In this document: in pieces, positions 8,698 to 19,414 of the stretch | How positions within the stretch are numbered: position 1 is the stretch's first letter | Layout: every line of letters begins with the position of its first letter | Virus record (IMG/VR): IMGVR_UViG_3300035181_000718 | Coordinates: 1-36,741 of that record | Strand: one strand, 5' to 3' | Source of the DNA: a virus | DNA: 36,741 nt | The notes under the pieces: generated by a model | Told to the model about the DNA's origin: nothing | The model's input: the letters and a program-made list of their open reading frames with translations, nothing else | Databases searched by the model: none | Translations under genes and position numbers: made by a program

Positions 8698-9168
8698 ATG
8701 GTACTCGGTCTATTCAAACATGAGCACAGATTCATTGGAGATGAACCCGGTGCACAGTTGGTAACTCTATTACAATCTATTAACTCAAAACTCGACAAAA
8801 TCATGGATGCAGAACAAGAAATTTTAGCTGAGGTAGAAGCCTTGAAAGCTAAAGAAGCGACATTACAAACTACACTTGATAGTGTACAGCAAACTCTCAC
8901 CGACACTATGGCTGCAAAAGATGTAACCATTGCTACTGCACAAGCAGCAAACGAAACACTGAAAGCAACCATCCTTGATTTGCAGGGACAGTTAGCCAGT
9001 GGTATATCACCAGCAGGAGTACAAACACTAAGAGAATCTCTTGGTGTAGTAAGCCAGGGCCTGGATACTATTACAACTGATGTAGCCAGTACTGTTTCGG
9101 CTCCAACACCAGCTCCGGTAGTTGACCCAACTCCAGTAGTAACAGACCCAACTCCGCCAACAGTCTAA
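8698..9168 (+). CDS. coiled-coil protein with proline-rich tail
   Basis: 156 aa. A short N-terminal segment (MVLGLFKHEHRF) is followed by a long, alanine/glutamate-rich heptad region of about residues 20-100 (SINSKLDKIMDAEQEILAEV...), predicted to oligomerise. The last 25 residues are a flexible PTPAPVVDPTP-type tail. This architecture is common in small phage proteins of unknown role. It is the first gene of the plus-strand arm, behind a structured leader and followed by its own terminator at 9186, so it is probably expressed independently and strongly. Function is unknown. Confidence 0.65.
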   Translation: MVLGLFKHEHRFIGDEPGAQLVTLLQSINSKLDKIMDAEQEILAEVEALKAKEATLQTTLDSVQQTLTDTMAAKDVTIATAQAANETLKATILDLQGQLASGISPAGVQTLRESLGVVSQGLDTITTDVASTVSAPTPAPVVDPTPVVTDPTPPTV

Positions 9169-9185
9169 CCTAACCAGATGACAGA

Positions 9186-9219
9186 TGCCTCAGATTAATA
9201 CTCTGGGGCATTGTTATTT
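9186..9219 (+). terminator. intrinsic terminator after the coiled-coil gene
   Basis: TGCCTCAGA pairs with TCTGGGGCA (9 bp, one G-U), 7-nt loop, followed by TTGTTATTT. A second inverted repeat TGGGTA/TACCCA lies at 9232-9237 with 9251-9256. Confidence 0.65.
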
Positions 9220-9297: not shown

Positions 9298-9621
9298 ATG
9301 GATTCACAATCTACACAGGAGTCTTCGAAGACTCTCACCAGAGGACAACATATAATGTCCGTATCCTTCAATCCCGGTCAGCGTGAGGACGTGGCTGCAA
9401 TCAAACAGATCTTCGCTGATGCATTTGATGAAATTGATAAGTGGGTACGACAGAGGCATATTGATATGACTTCTACTACTGACCCTGAGGTTAAGGAAAA
9501 CATTGAAAGAACTTTTACTTCAAGAGATTTACAACATTCAGACATGATGCGGCTTGCCTCCATTGCCAAGACTAACCTGGAGACTGCTCAGATGTATGCA
9601 GTGAAAGCCGTCACTCGATAA
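9298..9621 (+). CDS. candidate Acb2/Tad1-like cyclic-nucleotide sponge
   Basis: 107 aa. The C-terminal helical hairpin (about residues 74-107) reads SRDLQHSDMMRLASIAKTNL then ETAQMYAVKAVTR. This resembles the SRE...TKLEEAxMWAxKAxT pattern I know from Acb2/Tad1-type phage proteins, which bind cyclic nucleotides to block CBASS and Thoeris defence. An N-terminal helix (VAAIKQIFADAFDEIDKWV) also fits the small all-helical fold. Trp is replaced by Tyr100 in the key helix. The ATG at 9298 is favoured by the acaactATG leader shared with the next gene; Met20 (9355) is an alternative. The function is inferred from motif resemblance, not demonstrated. Confidence 0.45.
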   Translation: MDSQSTQESSKTLTRGQHIMSVSFNPGQREDVAAIKQIFADAFDEIDKWVRQRHIDMTSTTDPEVKENIERTFTSRDLQHSDMMRLASIAKTNLETAQMYAVKAVTR

Positions 9622-9631
9622 ATCTACAACT

Positions 9632-9790
9632 ATGAAAATACATATTAAACGTTCACTCGACAATCAGATATTCTTCACTATTCACGCACGCAACGGTAAG
9701 ACCATTGCTACCAGTGAGACTTACAAACGTAAGAGCAGTGCTGTGAAAGCTGCCAAGAAGTTTATCATGCCAATAAGATACTATTTGTAA
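9632..9790 (+). CDS. DUF1508-like miniprotein (52 aa)
   Basis: 52 aa, too short for usual ORF cut-offs. The sequence FFTIHARNGKTIATSETYKR (residues 14-33), followed by KSSAVKAAKKF, matches the pattern of one DUF1508 (YegP-type) unit: aromatic strand, A-x-NG-x-x-I-A-x-SE-x-Y, then a short helix. DUF1508 proteins are small beta-alpha proteins of unknown function, usually with two units; this has one. The start has the same acaactATG leader as the upstream gene. Its TAA overlaps the ATG of the nuclease gene (TAATG), which supports that it is really translated. Confidence 0.65.
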   Translation: MKIHIKRSLDNQIFFTIHARNGKTIATSETYKRKSSAVKAAKKFIMPIRYYL

Positions 9791-10638
9791 TGAGTTGGGC
9801 AGAAAACATACAACGTGAGTTTGCATCTAAAGAGATGGATAGTAAACTACTGTGTGGTACTGAACAGCAGATACCTATAACTACTCCTGTAGTCTATGAT
9901 GATGCTGAACATGTTTACACTCTCAATCAACAGAAATACATCGGAGCTTCTTCTCTGTATGAAGACTTCCATGAGAAGTTCCCTGCAGATGCTCACATCA
10001 AATATGCTGAGAAACATGGTAACACTCCTGAGTACTGGAAACAGAAGTGGGAAGAAAAGAACCTGCTGAGCAGAGTGAGGGGGAACAAGATACATGATGC
10101 CAATGAGGTGTCAGACCACGGGAGAATGATTAACATCTATGAAGGACAGCAGGTATCGGTGATCGGGCCCGGCTATGAGGATAACTATCCATGGATTGAG
10201 AGACCTGATGGAGTGTACACAGAGAGGATGGTGTGGCACCACGGGTACAAAATAGCTGGAAGGATTGATAAAACTATCATCCTTACAGACAATACACCTA
10301 TTCACGGGTTCGGAGTTCAACGGGGACCACTGAGATATGCTAATATAGAGGATTACAAAACCAACGCTAAGCTGGACTTCAAGAGTTTTCAGTTCCGCAA
10401 TGGCAGTTACAAGATGATGAAGTATCCCATTGCTCACCTGATGGATTGCAATTGGATCCACTACGCTATTCAACAGAGTGTGTACATGCTCTGTCTGGAG
10501 TATCAGGGATTCCTGCCGGGAAGAATAACTATCAAACACTATCCTCACCCAACAGCAGATAATCCCAATCCTAAGCCGGTTGAATACGAAGTACCCTATT
10601 TAAAGAAAGAAGTGCTTGCTATGTGTAAGTGCAAATAA
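9790..10638 (+). CDS. PD-(D/E)XK superfamily nuclease
   Basis: 282 aa. The family layout is clear: an N-terminal YTLNQQKYIGASSL entry (residues about 40-53), RGNKIHDANE in the central helix, GRIDKTII with Asp160, then IEDYKT with Asp188-x-Lys190 as the catalytic D-xK pair. A glutamine-rich helix follows (YAIQQSVYMLCLEY) and a closing strand pair. This is the RecB/Cas4-like exonuclease fold. crAss-like genomes carry such a nuclease beside the packaging genes, as here, where an IHF-like gene and terL follow. The likely role is DNA processing during replication, recombination or packaging. The start overlaps the previous stop as TAATG. Confidence 0.75.
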   Translation: MSWAENIQREFASKEMDSKLLCGTEQQIPITTPVVYDDAEHVYTLNQQKYIGASSLYEDFHEKFPADAHIKYAEKHGNTPEYWKQKWEEKNLLSRVRGNKIHDANEVSDHGRMINIYEGQQVSVIGPGYEDNYPWIERPDGVYTERMVWHHGYKIAGRIDKTIILTDNTPIHGFGVQRGPLRYANIEDYKTNAKLDFKSFQFRNGSYKMMKYPIAHLMDCNWIHYAIQQSVYMLCLEYQGFLPGRITIKHYPHPTADNPNPKPVEYEVPYLKKEVLAMCKCK

Positions 10639-10648
10639 ACGTTTCACT

Positions 10649-10966
10649 ATGGCCATGTATGATTCTCATCTACCCTATGAGGAGAAGGAATGTAATAGTC
10701 GTATCATCCGTGAAATAGCGGAAGATATGAGTCTCAACATCTCACAGGTTGAGCACATTACTAAACACTTCTCTGAATTTATCTCAGGTACCATTCACTC
10801 CGGCTCACTTGAAGGGGTAATGGTACCCTATCTCGGTAAGTTTCAGGTCAAACTTCATTCACAACAGTACAAGGACTTCCTACATTCGTTGGGCAAGGAT
10901 ATGAAGAAGTATTTCAAATCAAACAAGGATGCAATGGATGTCCTGATGGAGGGCATTGAACAATGA
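10649..10966 (+). CDS. IHF/HU-like DNA-binding protein
   Basis: 105 aa from the ATG at 10649 (cactATG leader). The in-frame ATG at 10616 would lie inside the nuclease gene and is less likely. Residues about 20-55 form the two-helix dimerisation part (IIREIAEDMSLNISQVEHITKHFSEFI), followed by SLEGVMVPYLGKFQVK, which matches the beta-arm entry of IHF/HU proteins (I-x-GFGxFxV type). crAss-like phages encode IHF-type subunits beside their packaging and head genes. It probably bends DNA during packaging or transcription. It ends by ATGA overlap with the next gene. Confidence 0.75.
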   Translation: MAMYDSHLPYEEKECNSRIIREIAEDMSLNISQVEHITKHFSEFISGTIHSGSLEGVMVPYLGKFQVKLHSQQYKDFLHSLGKDMKKYFKSNKDAMDVLMEGIEQ

Positions 10967-11868: not shown

Positions 11869-12053
11869 TGTCATGTACCAAGAAATGTTATGAAACCCGT
11901 GCCATTGCCAAAGCTGCAATGAAGGAAGTCAACCGTAAGAAGAAACTTCAATTCAAACTTACCTATGTGTACTACTGCATTGCTTGCTCAAATTGGCATA
12001 CAACACATCAGGCTAAATCCAAGCGCCGCACATATAAAACCAACAAAAAGTAA
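11868..12053 (+). CDS. zinc-ribbon-like miniprotein before terL (61 aa)
   Basis: 61 aa, very basic. Cys3, Cys7, Cys37, Cys40, His44 and His47 are arranged as in the C-x-x-C...H-x-x-H proteins often seen in phages (Y-x-C-x-x-C-x-x-WH-x-x-H). The tail is a run of lysines and arginines (QAKSKRRTYKTNKK), likely to contact nucleic acid. It is coupled on both sides by TAATG overlaps, the downstream one with terL, so it may be co-produced with the packaging motor. Function is unknown. Confidence 0.65.
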   Translation: MSCTKKCYETRAIAKAAMKEVNRKKKLQFKLTYVYYCIACSNWHTTHQAKSKRRTYKTNKK

Positions 12054-14152
12054 TGGGATTCCATAAGTTAGTCAATACTGCACAGTTCTCTTATACAGCC
12101 CGTGATTTCAAAAAACAGGGAGACAAGTATTGCCTGGCTCCTATAGGAAGCCGGGAGTGGACAGAATGGTGGGATGAGGAAGAACATCGGTGTGCTGAAG
12201 GTTACAGTATTGGAGATCTTTGGATACCCGGCAGAATGTATCACTACCTAAACTTCTCTCCTATCATGAAGGTAGACGATGCAGTGGCCATGGCTATGTA
12301 CAGGGAAGGAAGAAGTAAGAAGGATGGTAAACTCAGTCGTACTGTGAGTGATCGTATCATGGGCTTTCCTAGATTCTATGAGATAGATTATGAGTGGTAC
12401 AACTTCAAACACATCGCCTGGAACGGCGGAGAATTCATGGGAATTCAGTCTCCCGGCGCTAAGCACGTCTGCTGTGGGAAGACAAGAGGAGCCGGCTTCT
12501 CTTACAAAGAGGCCCAGGATGGAGTGTACAATTTCACCTTCATTGATGGTTCCAAGAGTTACTATTTTGCAGGACTGGAACAGTACTTGACAACAGATGG
12601 TATCCTCAATAAGGTACAGCCCATGTTGGATTTCATCAATGACAACTGTATTGAATGGAAGAAGAACAGGCAGAAGAAAAGTACACTTCTGCATCAGAAA
12701 GCATCCTATGTTGATAGTATGGGAGTTGAACGTGGTAGTTTCAGTGAGATCATAGGACTGAGCATTGATGATCCGGAAAAGACCAGAGGAAAGCGTGGAC
12801 GTAAGATTGTATTTGAAGAGGCTGGTTCATTCAAGAACCTGAAGAAAGCGCTGAATGTATGCCGCGGTTCTATACAAGATGGAGACATCACTGTGGGACA
12901 GATCAGTGTGTTTGGTACCGGCGGTGAAGAAGGTACAAGTATTGAAGGACTGGAAGACATTTTCTATGATCCGGATAGTTTTGATATGCTGGCATTCCCC
13001 AACGTGTGGGAGAAAGGTTATGAGGGAACTACCTGTGGCTACTTTGTCCCTGTATGGAGAACCAAGAGTTCTTTCATGGATGAAGAGGGTAACGTGGATA
13101 TTGTTGGCGCCATTGACTCTGAGAAGATCATTCGCCGGCAGAAAAAGAAAGCCAAAGATCCCAAAGTACTCGATGGACACAAGGCTGAGTACCCATTTAA
13201 ACCTGGAGAAATGTTCAAACGTCTCTCCAAGAATATGTTTGACATCGCTGAAGTGGATGCCCAGATCAGGCGTGTTGAGACACAGCAGGTGATACAGGGT
13301 ATGTTACGCTACGGACAACTTAGACGTGATGAGGAACATGGAGTCATACTGGTACCCCAAGCAAAGGATGTAGCCAAGCCAGTGGACTTCTATCCCCACA
13401 CAGCCAAGGATGATCTGGAAGGATGTGTCACTATCGCGGCCCGTCCATATAAAGACATCAAGGGGCAGACTCCGGATGGTATGTACCAAATCGTAGTCGA
13501 TCCTTATTACAAGGAAGAGAGTGAAGATCTCACCTCACTGTTCTCTGTCTCTGTATGGAAGCAGTATAACATGCTGGACCCTGTAGATGAGGGACTTCCT
13601 GTAGCCTGGTATGATGCCCGGCCACAACAACTGGAGACTGCTTACAAGAATCTCTTTATGCTGAGTGATATGTACAATGCGTCTATCCAAAGTGAGATAG
13701 CCGGTGGTGGACAGGGTATAGTAGACTACGCACGTAAAACGAAGCAACTTCACAAGCTGGACTTCGAACCTGAGATGCTCGGTAACAAGGAGTACACTAC
13801 TGCTGCTCAGCAGAAAAATCGTACTATCTTCATGAATATGTCCACAGAAAAGAAACGTATGGGCCTTACCTATTTGGCCAACTGGCATACTACACAGAGA
13901 GGCTCTACTCCTGAGGGAAAACCTGTACTAAACATTCATCGTATCTACTGGCTCGGCCTGCTGAGGGAGATGAAGCGATTCAATCCGGACAAGAATGCTG
14001 ACCGTATCTCAGGTTCTATCCTAGCCATGTTCATGCTCAAGGAGAATGCTTACAAAGAAGAGAAGCGTATCCCCAAGGACAACACTTTCTTCAAGAAACC
14101 CCTCTTCGGGGGGGCACAAGCTACACAAGCTGGTACCACCTCCTACTTCTAA
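12053..14152 (+). CDS. terL: terminase large subunit
   Basis: 699 aa, the ATP-driven motor that packages DNA into the prohead through the portal. The Walker A motif is CGKTRGAGFS at about residues 141-150. Walker B is KIVFEEAG at 251-258 with Glu255/Glu256. The RNase H-like nuclease domain begins near IVVDP with Asp483, and another acidic residue lies at NADRISG (Asp649). The length is usual for crAss-like TerL. It starts by TAATG overlap with the zinc-ribbon gene and is followed at 36 bp by the portal gene. It is the most reliable marker of the genome type in the window. Confidence 0.95.
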   Translation: MGFHKLVNTAQFSYTARDFKKQGDKYCLAPIGSREWTEWWDEEEHRCAEGYSIGDLWIPGRMYHYLNFSPIMKVDDAVAMAMYREGRSKKDGKLSRTVSDRIMGFPRFYEIDYEWYNFKHIAWNGGEFMGIQSPGAKHVCCGKTRGAGFSYKEAQDGVYNFTFIDGSKSYYFAGLEQYLTTDGILNKVQPMLDFINDNCIEWKKNRQKKSTLLHQKASYVDSMGVERGSFSEIIGLSIDDPEKTRGKRGRKIVFEEAGSFKNLKKALNVCRGSIQDGDITVGQISVFGTGGEEGTSIEGLEDIFYDPDSFDMLAFPNVWEKGYEGTTCGYFVPVWRTKSSFMDEEGNVDIVGAIDSEKIIRRQKKKAKDPKVLDGHKAEYPFKPGEMFKRLSKNMFDIAEVDAQIRRVETQQVIQGMLRYGQLRRDEEHGVILVPQAKDVAKPVDFYPHTAKDDLEGCVTIAARPYKDIKGQTPDGMYQIVVDPYYKEESEDLTSLFSVSVWKQYNMLDPVDEGLPVAWYDARPQQLETAYKNLFMLSDMYNASIQSEIAGGGQGIVDYARKTKQLHKLDFEPEMLGNKEYTTAAQQKNRTIFMNMSTEKKRMGLTYLANWHTTQRGSTPEGKPVLNIHRIYWLGLLREMKRFNPDKNADRISGSILAMFMLKENAYKEEKRIPKDNTFFKKPLFGGAQATQAGTTSYF

Positions 14153-14188: not shown

Positions 14189-16624
14189 ATGTCATCTAAC
14201 CAGTTACCTGAAGAAAATACCCGTGTAGCTCCCAGTGGTAAGCCATTACAGAGACTCTCATGGGCTGAAAAGACTGCAAAGAACTACGAGTGGTTTAAAC
14301 TGAATATCGACTACAGAATTGGTTTATCCAATTTCAACTTTGGCACTGCCCCCGGCAACCGGAAAGATCTGGGTATGCTCTACAGCGTGTACAATAATCA
14401 ATTCCCACTTGAGTGGTTCTCCCATATCACCGATCCGCTATCCGCTACCAATCCACAACACAAGGTTTACCCCGCTAAGGTGAGACCTACTTCCATGCTC
14501 CGTACCAACATTGATTTACTATTGGGAGAATACCCCAAGAGACCTTACGTCTACCAAGTAGTAAATATGGGCGAAGATGCCTTTAACAACTACCTGGATG
14601 GGTTGAGCAAGAAGCTGGAACAGAACATTGGTGAGCATTTCCTTGCTGCAGCACAAGCTAACATGCAAGCTGCTGGACATGATGTTCCTTCCATTCCTCA
14701 GCAGGAGGAGATACCCATGCCTGAGGAAATCAAAGATAGGTTCACTTCCGGCTACAAGGATAACCTTGCACGGAGAGGACAGAAATGGATAAAGCGTGCC
14801 ATCCGTGAGTACAACGTAAGGCAGAAGCAACTGAAGATGTTTAAAGATTGGCTGATCACTGGTCGTGTGTACAGTTACAAGAATATTGAAAATGGAAGCT
14901 TCATCTATGAGAGAGTAAGTGCTCTCGAGTTTGATTATGATAAGAGTCCCGGACTTGACTTCATTGAAGATGGTGAATGGGCCATCCGTAGACAACTGTT
15001 AAGCATCAGCGATGTGGTAGACAGATTCTATGATGAACTGAAAGATGCAGACTATGTAGACCTTGAATCCCGTACCCAGTGGGTTACTCCTTTCAGTATG
15101 TATAACTATTTGCAGGGAGATACCAAGTCAGATCAGTATAGTGGTAAGATACCCGTATACCATGTAACTTGGAAAGGAAAAAAACAGGTACTGATTGTTG
15201 AATATACCGATCCCTTCACTGGAAAGGTAGAGGAGATGGAACTTGATGAAGACACTCCTATTGATGATACAATGAAAGTTACCAAACGTATCTGGGTAAA
15301 CAGTGTGCATGAAGGATGGAGAATCGGGGACAAGATCTTCTCACGTATGCGGGAAATTCCTGTACAGCGCAATGAGATGAACAACTTCTCCCGGTGTAAG
15401 CTTCCCTACAATGGTAAGCACTACAGTGATACACATGCCGAAAACATGAGTGTACTGGAGATGGGTCTGCCGTATGCTATCATGTATATGGTAACCAACT
15501 TCCTGCTGGAGAAAACTATTGCCAAGAGCAAAGGAAAGATCGCTCTCATTGACCAGAATTCAATACCCAAAGGAGATGGCTGGGATGAAGAAAAGTTCTT
15601 CTACTACGCGGACGCACTCGGATACATGCTCATCAACCGTTCCCAGATGGGAGTTGACAAGAGCTTCAATCAATACCATACGCTGGATATGAGTCTGTTT
15701 GATCAGATCAAAGAACTCATTAATCTGCGTGATAGTTTTAAGAGAGACTGGGATGAAGTATTGGGTATCTCACCACAACGTAAGGCACAGACAAATAGTA
15801 GTGATGGACTGGGTACCACTCAAGCCAATCTCTTCCAGAGTAGCCTGATGACAGATATGATTTTCACCCTGTTTGAAGAATTCACAGAGAAAGAACTGCA
15901 AGGCTTCCTGGATTACAGTCGCTTCGTCAATGTAGATGGCATTCGTGCTATTTACAATGAAGATGACTTCGATCGTGAGCTGCTGGAGATTGACCCCAAC
16001 TCTTACTGCTCGGCAGAGCTCGGTCTATTCGTGACGCACTCTGCAGAAGAGCAACAGAACCTCAACCAGTACAAAGGACAGACGCAGGCTATGATACAGA
16101 ATGGTGTAAAGCAATCCACCATTCTGGAGATTCAGCGTGCCGATAACATAGCTGAACTAATGGGTAAACTCAAGCGCATTGAGGCTATTGAAATGCAGCA
16201 GGCGCAAGAGACCGCTCAGAATGAACAGCAGCATGAGGCCATGATTGAACAGATCAAAGAGAAGTATGCCCAGATACAGAGTGACTGCAAGATTAATGAG
16301 ATCAATGCCGAGTGGGACAGACGTGACCAGAATGCCATGGTAGTTGGGGAGTACGCCCTCGAAGCAGCAGGTGTAAGCAGTGATGCGGATGGTAACGGAA
16401 TACCCGATTCAGTTGAGATCAGTAAACGTGTGATTGCAGCACAGAAGGTACTATCTGAAGAGAAGGTAGCCTATATGGAGATCAGTCACCGTGATAAGAT
16501 ACACAAGGACAATATGAACCTGGCCGATAAACAACTGGCACTGGAGAAGGAAAAGCTAAAAAGTAAAGAGAAGACTGAAGCTATGAAACTCCAGGCTGCT
16601 AAGGCCAAGTCAACTAAGAAATAA
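14189..16624 (+). CDS. portal protein
   Basis: 811 aa. It forms the dodecameric DNA gate at one capsid vertex and docks TerL and the connector. The N-terminal half has the crAss-like portal pattern (wing region with RPTSMLRTNIDLLLGEYPKRPY, clip/stem with YNVRQKQLKMFKDWLITGRVYSYKN). The C-terminal ~170 residues are a glutamine/lysine-rich coiled coil, probably the barrel. An EF-hand-like loop DADGNGIPDSVE occurs at residues 732-743. Position directly after terL and before the scaffold-like gene is the classical order. The start uses a tactATG leader. Confidence 0.9.
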   Translation: MSSNQLPEENTRVAPSGKPLQRLSWAEKTAKNYEWFKLNIDYRIGLSNFNFGTAPGNRKDLGMLYSVYNNQFPLEWFSHITDPLSATNPQHKVYPAKVRPTSMLRTNIDLLLGEYPKRPYVYQVVNMGEDAFNNYLDGLSKKLEQNIGEHFLAAAQANMQAAGHDVPSIPQQEEIPMPEEIKDRFTSGYKDNLARRGQKWIKRAIREYNVRQKQLKMFKDWLITGRVYSYKNIENGSFIYERVSALEFDYDKSPGLDFIEDGEWAIRRQLLSISDVVDRFYDELKDADYVDLESRTQWVTPFSMYNYLQGDTKSDQYSGKIPVYHVTWKGKKQVLIVEYTDPFTGKVEEMELDEDTPIDDTMKVTKRIWVNSVHEGWRIGDKIFSRMREIPVQRNEMNNFSRCKLPYNGKHYSDTHAENMSVLEMGLPYAIMYMVTNFLLEKTIAKSKGKIALIDQNSIPKGDGWDEEKFFYYADALGYMLINRSQMGVDKSFNQYHTLDMSLFDQIKELINLRDSFKRDWDEVLGISPQRKAQTNSSDGLGTTQANLFQSSLMTDMIFTLFEEFTEKELQGFLDYSRFVNVDGIRAIYNEDDFDRELLEIDPNSYCSAELGLFVTHSAEEQQNLNQYKGQTQAMIQNGVKQSTILEIQRADNIAELMGKLKRIEAIEMQQAQETAQNEQQHEAMIEQIKEKYAQIQSDCKINEINAEWDRRDQNAMVVGEYALEAAGVSSDADGNGIPDSVEISKRVIAAQKVLSEEKVAYMEISHRDKIHKDNMNLADKQLALEKEKLKSKEKTEAMKLQAAKAKSTKK

Positions 16625-17863: not shown

Positions 17864-19414
17864 ATGGCACAACCTACCCCAGCCCTGAAATACAGGGTCA
17901 CCGAAGGAATCTTTGATTCCAAATCAATGCTGGATGAAACCAACTTCTACCACCAGCGTCAGGGCGCTCCATCGGAGCTTACCCGTAAACTCACCTATAT
18001 CATGGGTGACTATACAAAGAATTATCCTATTTCATTGATGACCCTCGGTGGTATTGGCTATGAAGGCAATGCTATGCAGAGAGCTGCTGTGGAATTGGAT
18101 GATGTCCAGTTCACTTATCCTGTGATGGGCCGTATTCATAAAGCTTCAATTGTAAGCTCGAATGCGTACACCACTGGTGATAAGCCTGGTATCGGAAACA
18201 ACCAGTTCAAGTTGCGCCTTACGGACAACTGGATTAAACGTTTCTTCATCATCCAGTCAGCCCGCGGTATTCAGGCTTATGTTCATTCTGATCCTGTTAT
18301 TACAGGTACTGGTGAATATGAGTACACTGTATCATTGAATGCTGCCTTGCCAACTGACTTTTGTCCTTTGACAGAGCTGGATGGTGGTAATGCATGGATT
18401 GACATTACTACCGCTGTTGCAGAGAGTGAATCCCGTACAACTGAATCTAAAATGGCCATGCCTGGTTCATTCAAGAACCAAATGGGTTTCATGCGTCATG
18501 GTTTCAGCTGGGCTGGTAATTCTGCTAACAAGGTAATGAAGATCTCAGTTAAGACAGACAAGGGTGAAACTGATGTTTGGATGGATTGGGCTATGTGGCA
18601 GTATGAAATGGAATGGCTATCTATCTGCGAACACAACTACTGGTATTCTCGTTACAACAGGGCTGCCAACGGTACCGTGGCGCTGAAAGATTTGCTTACT
18701 GGTAAAGACATCCCAACCGGATCAGGTATCCTGGAGCAAATTCAGAACAAGAGTACTTACTCTGATTTGAACTACGACTACATGGTGAGCCAAATCGGTG
18801 ACGCATTGTTTGGTCAGTCTGACACAGCAGGTATCTCTATCACATTGCATACAGGTCGTGGTGGTATGAGGGCATTCGATCGTGCTATCAAGAAAGCAGG
18901 TGGAACTATCCTGGCTAACCTTGGATCTGGCGCCGGCAACATTGCCGATAAGTTCATCTCTGGTACTGGATCACATCTGGCTTTGGGTGGATACTTCGAT
19001 CAGTTCTATCATATTGATGGATACACTGTGAAAGTGAAACACAACCCAACCTTCGACATGGGTAAAGTAGCTCTTGCACAGCAGGCAGCTGGTTACACTC
19101 ATCCGGAAACAGGGTGGCCATTAGAATCTTACCGTATGGTGTTCATTGATGACAACGATTACGATGGTCAACCAAACATCCAACACGTTGCTCAGAAAGG
19201 ACGTTCATTCCAGCATGGTGTGATCGCCGGTATGACTAACATGCCTAAGAGTCTTCAGGTAATGACTGGAAGCTTTAACATTGATAACGAAAGCAAGGCA
19301 ACTCTGCTGAGCACTGACCAGGATAAGAGCGCATACACACGCTTTAAGTCTGCAGGTATTCAGATCCTAAGAGCTAACCGTTGCTTCGACTTCCAATGCT
19401 TAGCTGGTCAGTAA
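17864..19414 (+). CDS. major capsid protein (crAss-like, HK97 fold)
   Basis: 516 aa. It carries segments I know from crAss-like major capsid proteins: an EHNYWYSRYNRAANGTVAL stretch at about residues 262-280, LLTGKDIPTGSGILEQIQN right after it, and an HTGRGGMRAFDRAIKKAG segment. The length is typical. It forms the icosahedral shell. An intrinsic terminator and an extra hairpin follow directly, so this transcript end is defined and high capsid output is plausible. It starts after a 34-bp leader rich in A and T. Confidence 0.92.
   Translation: MAQPTPALKYRVTEGIFDSKSMLDETNFYHQRQGAPSELTRKLTYIMGDYTKNYPISLMTLGGIGYEGNAMQRAAVELDDVQFTYPVMGRIHKASIVSSNAYTTGDKPGIGNNQFKLRLTDNWIKRFFIIQSARGIQAYVHSDPVITGTGEYEYTVSLNAALPTDFCPLTELDGGNAWIDITTAVAESESRTTESKMAMPGSFKNQMGFMRHGFSWAGNSANKVMKISVKTDKGETDVWMDWAMWQYEMEWLSICEHNYWYSRYNRAANGTVALKDLLTGKDIPTGSGILEQIQNKSTYSDLNYDYMVSQIGDALFGQSDTAGISITLHTGRGGMRAFDRAIKKAGGTILANLGSGAGNIADKFISGTGSHLALGGYFDQFYHIDGYTVKVKHNPTFDMGKVALAQQAAGYTHPETGWPLESYRMVFIDDNDYDGQPNIQHVAQKGRSFQHGVIAGMTNMPKSLQVMTGSFNIDNESKATLLSTDQDKSAYTRFKSAGIQILRANRCFDFQCLAGQ

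Follow-up and report, generated by a model that had tools for sequence, protein, structure and literature searches.

An Acb2-type hairpin protein, probably a nucleotide sponge, encoded at the head of the packaging run of a crAss-like phage

Within a 36,741-nucleotide (36.7-kb) virus record (hereafter the window, meaning the whole stretch of DNA that we analyzed), we found that the gene at positions 9298 to 9621 encodes a divergent member of the Acb2/Tad1 hairpin family. Its product is, in our judgment, probably an Acb2-type sponge that acts through an oligomer to sequester CBASS-type nucleotides, Thoeris-type nucleotides, or both. The gene and the parts of its product are as follows.

9298 to 9621, plus strand: gene for the probable Acb2-type sponge, 107 amino acids with an ATG start (PF24729, PHROG 717, syntenic relatives, purifying selection)
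9334 to 9375, plus strand: conserved N-terminal motif LTRGQxxMSVSFNP, residues 13–26, comprising a short helix (15–19) and F24
9367 to 9618, plus strand: Acb2/Tad1 hairpin domain, residues 24–107, from the hmmscan envelope, the profile-search match (9367–9618) and helices 30–58 and 73–106

The reading frame is a real gene rather than a chance ORF, because its first and second codon positions were conserved (73–81% identical between the window gene and six relatives) while its third positions had diverged (33–48%). The proteins of these relatives were 55–65% identical in amino-acid sequence to that of the window, and the gene is under strong purifying selection. Its start is likely at 9298 rather than at the internal ATG at 9355, because the conservation of LTRGQxVMSVSFNPG in the relatives spans the internal ATG. 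The C terminus of the protein, ...SRDLQHSDMMRLASIAKTNLETAQMYAVKAVTR, matches the letters quoted in the first-pass annotation, which had singled out this gene as a candidate Acb2/Tad1-like sponge and had suggested comparison with the profiles of those families.

That comparison bore the candidate out, and neither of the two results that would have told against it, a lack of profile similarity or a dissimilar fold, was obtained. A Pfam hmmscan of the window protein returned a single family, PF24729 (Acb2_Tad1_hairpin), at 41.5 bits (E = 1.6e-10; cut-off, 27 bits), and the best PHROG was PHROG 717 at 30 bits. As controls, PaP2 Acb2 and T4-type Acb2 each scored 66 bits in PF24729, and they scored 115 bits (PaP2) and 112 bits (T4) in PHROG 717. 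We then searched all PDB sequences with a family profile (A2) built from 53 relatives, which gave one significant match, to T4 Acb2 (Vs.4, solved structure 7uq2; E = 4.7e-4). When the same profile was run against all PaP2 ORFs, Acb2 (gp26, the protein of the solved structures 8h2j, 8h2x and 8ixz) ranked first, weakly (E = 0.011). T4 Acb2 was reached through the family profile only, as a phmmer search of the PDB with the single window protein found no match; an NCBIfam search of the protein likewise gave none. Two other matches were set aside: a weak PADLOC match to a restriction specificity subunit, which we judged a coiled-coil artefact, and a PHROG 1967 'DNA helicase' match (E = 0.012), which we took as noise.

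The matched domain is widespread. The wider FNP-type family to which the window protein belongs accounted for 409 matching stretches among viral contigs and a further 15 among bacterial assemblies, and we found no experimentally characterized member of this subfamily in the literature searched. The bacterial contigs that carry an FNP-type hairpin gene (L095–L109) come from Dyadobacter, Arachidicoccus, Polaromonas, Saccharibacteria and others, and these copies are probably prophages.

An AlphaFold2 single-chain model, computed with the 53-sequence alignment as input, had a mean pLDDT of 89 and consisted of helices at residues 15–19, 30–58, 63–71 (the tip) and 73–106, with no strand. The C-terminal helix pair that had been recognized from the sequence therefore reappears in the model as helices 30–58 and 73–106. 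The protomer layout of Acb2 and the N-terminal antiparallel β-sheet of Tad1 have both been defined (PMC12043709), and the model has the Acb2 order of elements: a short N-terminal helix and two long antiparallel helices with no β domain. No strand corresponding to the Tad1 β-sheet domain was predicted ahead of the hairpin domain, which only ~20 residues precede. Because no β domain is predicted, the protein is Acb2-like, and we rejected membership in Tad1, a refinement of the joint Acb2/Tad1-like label given in the first-pass annotation. A Foldseek search of the PDB placed T4 Acb2 and PaP2 Acb2 (two entries) at ranks 1–3, with weak E-values of 1.3–1.6; in a VIA-align search of the PDB, 7uq2 came third, with a Z score of 7.5 that was level with those of unrelated helical hairpins. 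Because such unrelated hairpins score equally in VIA-align, fold alone is no proof of membership, and we regard the predicted fold as consistent with membership in Acb2. Helical hairpins occur widely, and by themselves the scores from the structure searches do not rise above background, as would be expected if the protein merely resembled the sponges through chance coiled-coil or helical similarity. We nonetheless consider such a coincidence extremely unlikely, because the matches in Pfam, in PHROG and in the separate profile search of the PDB all agree and contradict it.

We next aligned the window protein to T4 Acb2 and PaP2 Acb2 to consider the positions that line the nucleotide-binding pockets; K36, T92 and M99 were invariant in this alignment. 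F24, a conservative substitution of Phe for Tyr, aligned to the pocket position occupied by Tyr8 in T4 and Tyr11 in PaP2; K36 aligned to T4 Lys23 and PaP2 Lys26; T92 to T4 Thr68 and PaP2 Thr74; K91 to T4 Lys67; and R85 to PaP2 Arg67. In PaP2, Tyr11 and Lys26 are residues of the dinucleotide pocket, and Arg67 is a residue of the trinucleotide site. By this alignment, the aromatic residue and lysine of the dinucleotide pocket and Thr68 of T4 have their counterparts in F24, K36 and T92, so that the pocket residues sought, including R85, were kept or conservatively replaced. T106 aligned to T4 Phe82, which is missing both here and in PaP2, where the residue is Ala. Across the 53 sequences, G16, F24, P26, K36, A40, A97-Q98-M99 and A101-V102-K103 were invariant, and N25, R85, T92 and T106 were at least 90% conserved. 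Tyr8, Thr68 and Phe82 of T4 Acb2 have been described as binding residues: affinity is lowered by T68M, the Y8A substitution is disruptive to binding, and Phe82 makes a stacking contact with the base (PMC12657218; PMC12657230). Retention of the binding positions, as judged from sequence, thus favors a sponge function. The window protein also has features that may shift its specificity, namely the Phe in place of Tyr, a shorter aromatic-to-lysine interval (12 residues from F24 to K36, compared with 15 in Acb2) and a hairpin that exceeds that of most wider-family members by ~20 residues. In the T2-like phage SV76 (L122:251-511), we observed a vs.4/acb2 reading with an altered N terminus (LKILRDKPHTEE) that lacks the pocket Tyr8 of T4-type Acb2; this may be a natural allele that has lost binding, or the start may have been called wrongly.

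These alignments bear on which messenger would be bound. A protein with the same function as Acb2, specific to CBASS signals (cyclic dinucleotides, cyclic trinucleotides, or both), would agree with T4 and PaP2 Acb2 being the nearest characterized relatives, with the retention of the F24, K36 and T92 pocket positions and with R85 standing at the position of PaP2 Arg67, but specificity could be altered by the Phe for Tyr, the Thr at the position of T4 Phe82 and the 3-residue-shorter F24–K36 interval, and we rate a CBASS-only sponge as a substantial possibility that falls somewhat short of an even chance. It is a sub-case of the sponge that we propose, as is the Thoeris-specific sponge considered below, and a single protein that binds both messengers is possible.

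Our analysis establishes the gene, its family, the predicted fold, the pocket-position residues, the synteny and the domain linkages of relatives; an oligomer, its ligand, sequestration and protection of the phage are what we infer, and they would be related as follows. Acb2 is a homo-hexamer with pockets between its subunits, and it inhibits CBASS by binding cyclic oligonucleotides and leaving them uncut. Copies of the sponge made during infection would assemble into an oligomer, perhaps a hexamer by analogy with Acb2, whose inter-subunit pockets would tightly bind the cyclic di- or trinucleotides of CBASS, the cyclic ADP-ribose isomers of Thoeris, or both. Sequestration of these host second messengers would be stoichiometric, and the effectors would stay inactive, which would avert cell killing and allow phage replication to be completed.

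The gene has a fixed place in its genome, which the following neighbors define.

8698 to 9168: coiled-coil protein with a Pro/Thr-rich tail and no family, ending just before the terminator-like hairpin
9184 to 9212, plus strand: terminator-like hairpin of 11 pairs between the upstream gene and the sponge run, from a pattern scan only
9632 to 9790, plus strand: DUF1508 mini-protein, next after the sponge gene (PF07411, 31.2 bits; cut-off, 22)
9790 to 10638, plus strand: phage exonuclease family protein (PHROG 298, 46.7 bits)
10616 to 10966, plus strand: IHF/HU-like DNA-binding protein, a weak assignment (PF00216, 21.2 bits, under the cut-off of 22.4; PHROG 379)
12053 to 14152, plus strand: terminase large subunit, Crassvirales type (PHROG 6681, 319 bits)
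14189 to 16624, plus strand: portal protein (PHROG 6547, 316 bits)
17864 to 19414, plus strand: major head protein (PHROG 11589, 233 bits)

The terminase was 30–32% identical over ~97% of its length to those of crAss-like phages, and because of this similarity, together with the portal and major head proteins encoded downstream, we consider the virus Crassvirales-like; Bacteroidota hosts would follow from that order. A contiguous run of genes on one strand, with intergenic gaps of –23 to +36 nucleotides, begins with the sponge gene and continues through the DUF1508 protein, exonuclease, IHF-like protein and three small or unknown genes to the terminase, portal and capsid genes. The gene had initially been placed in a small early-type unit before the packaging genes; it does precede those genes, but it heads a contiguous packaging and structural run rather than forming a separate unit. 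Our pattern scan found four terminator-like hairpins in the region, compared with 1.6 expected, and no Bacteroidota –7 promoter motif was found upstream of the sponge gene.

The head-of-run place was kept across the relatives in the clade. When loci were sampled independently, on the basis of their terminases, the sponge gene was present in seven of the seven that included upstream DNA, representing about four distinct lineages, and it was absent from the two gut crAss phages checked, cr273_1 and cr10_1; it therefore seems to belong to the core gene set of a single crAss-like clade. Another record (L012; IMGVR_UViG_3300020045_002481) had window-like genes on both strands, with its sponge gene split and a possible relative of the DUF1508 mini-protein nearby, and looks like an inverted assembly chimera.

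A gene that comes first in the packaging run, before the terminase genes, in all relatives of the clade might instead encode a hairpin re-used for another job, such as that of a DNA-packaging cofactor, scaffold or regulator, and many phages carry an uncharacterized version of the domain. We consider such re-use improbable: the two gut crAss phages that we checked package their DNA without the gene, the residues at the pocket positions rank with the best conserved in the 53 sequences, and the domain recurs in linkage with RyR modules that bind signals. For a sponge, in turn, being encoded in the capsid run would make sense against defenses that sense capsid protein, as staphylococcal Thoeris does (PMC12578639).

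The linkage to RyR modules (PF02026) was evident in relatives, which carried the two modules in two arrangements.

L004:4596-5243, L011:4536-5243, L024:153-746, L128:269-868 and L120:2471-3037 (Sulfitobacter phage phiCB2047-B): RyR domain fused N-terminally to the hairpin
L053:3001-3630, L075:2998-3599, L129:2001-2556 and L130:2001-2587: separate RyR and hairpin genes, next to each other or overlapping, with either one first

The fusions in L004, L011 and L024 occupy the same locus as the window gene, while L005, L006 and the window have nothing fused ahead of the hairpin, and L007 (4863-5000) and L010 (4881-5000) have a different short N-terminal segment there, MKLYTEQDLLxFGxYL, which had no Pfam match. 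Those in L128 and phiCB2047-B are further instances. Among the separate genes, the hairpin gene comes first in L053 (~20 nucleotides before the RyR gene) and in L075, L090 and L091 (with an ATGA overlap in L075), and the RyR gene comes first in L129 and L130. An AlphaFold2 model of the L004 fusion contained two confident modules (pLDDT 91), the first of which matched bacterial and human RyR repeats.

RyDEPs degrade or sequester the cyclic ADP-ribose signals of Thoeris; one hydrolyzes 2′cADPR and 3′cADPR, and others bind without cleavage, the domains tested having been R12-like (PMC13232231). Every RyR domain that we inspected had H-x2-W, with 25 residues from His to His and 17 from His to Asp, a spacing identical to that of the RyDEP residues His75, Trp78, His100 and Asp117 (PMC13232231). 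The text of that paper, as searched, mentions no Acb2, Tad1, hairpin or such fusion. The linkage, in the relatives where we saw it, supports the idea that the hairpin may handle nucleotide immune signals.

The same linkage raises the possibility of a sponge specific to Thoeris, with a Tad1-like target on an Acb2-like fold, acting alongside RyDEP modules in relatives. The relatives' hairpins are fused to, or overlap the genes of, RyR domains that carry all of the RyDEP residues, RyDEPs act on 2′cADPR and 3′cADPR (PMC13232231), and the sensing of capsid protein by staphylococcal Thoeris would fit a gene that heads the capsid run. However, the β domain of Tad1 is absent, a fusion could equally pair two different specificities and thereby broaden coverage, and the RyR domain is missing from the window protein and its gene from the whole window. 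We therefore think a Thoeris-only specificity possible but rather doubtful. More generally, we tentatively suggest, while thinking it on balance unlikely, that the hairpin and the RyDEP-type RyR domain form a recurrent counter-defense unit of two modules, joined by fusion or by translational coupling. One module would deal with cyclic ADP-ribose while the other dealt with cyclic oligonucleotides, or the two would cooperate on a single signal, and the window protein would then be the free-standing hairpin version, a core gene of its crAss-like lineage.

A 2024 preprint describes Acb2 as relatively rare and confined to particular phage groups (PMC11722364). In our data, a divergent Acb2-type subfamily occupies a constant place in the genomes of a crAss-like clade, and the FNP-type family extends much more widely. 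Its linkage to RyR domains of the RyDEP type suggests that phages build counter-defense proteins directed at several signals, and we regard these fusions among the relatives as the more interesting lead.

Among known systems, T4 Acb2 shares with the window protein PF24729, PHROG 717, the short N-terminal helix with two long helices, and the correspondence of T92, K91, K36 and F24 with Thr68, Lys67, Lys23 and Tyr8. It differs in its low identity (25%), in its Tyr8 and Phe82 (Phe and Thr106 in the window protein), in having GYKP where the window protein has the N-terminal LTRGQxxMSVSFNPG, and in coming from a different phage order. PaP2 Acb2 shares the same two families and the matches of R85, K36, F24 and T92 to Arg67, Lys26, Tyr11 and Thr74, but is only 19% identical and has the longer aromatic-to-lysine spacing (15 rather than 12 residues). 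With Tad1, which binds cyclic ADP-ribose signals (gcADPR), the window protein has in common the hairpin domain named in PF24729, whereas the N-terminal antiparallel β-sheet of Tad1 (PMC12043709) has no predicted counterpart. The likeness to RyDEPs (PMC13232231) lies in the relatives, five of which (L004, L011, L024, L128 and phiCB2047-B) fuse to the hairpin an RyR domain with the H75/W78/H100/D117 spacing; the window protein itself has neither that domain nor its four residues. A further similar group is the uncharacterized wider family T(F/Y)GEKAVGLSFNPS...TAQMWAVKAITW, which includes EcP1 gp26, Elemovirus and IMG/VR members: these have the same domain and share the invariant G, F.P, K and AQM(W/Y)AVK positions with the window protein, from which they differ in their shorter loop, their length of ~75 amino acids and the Ile that replaces the Lys of AKT.
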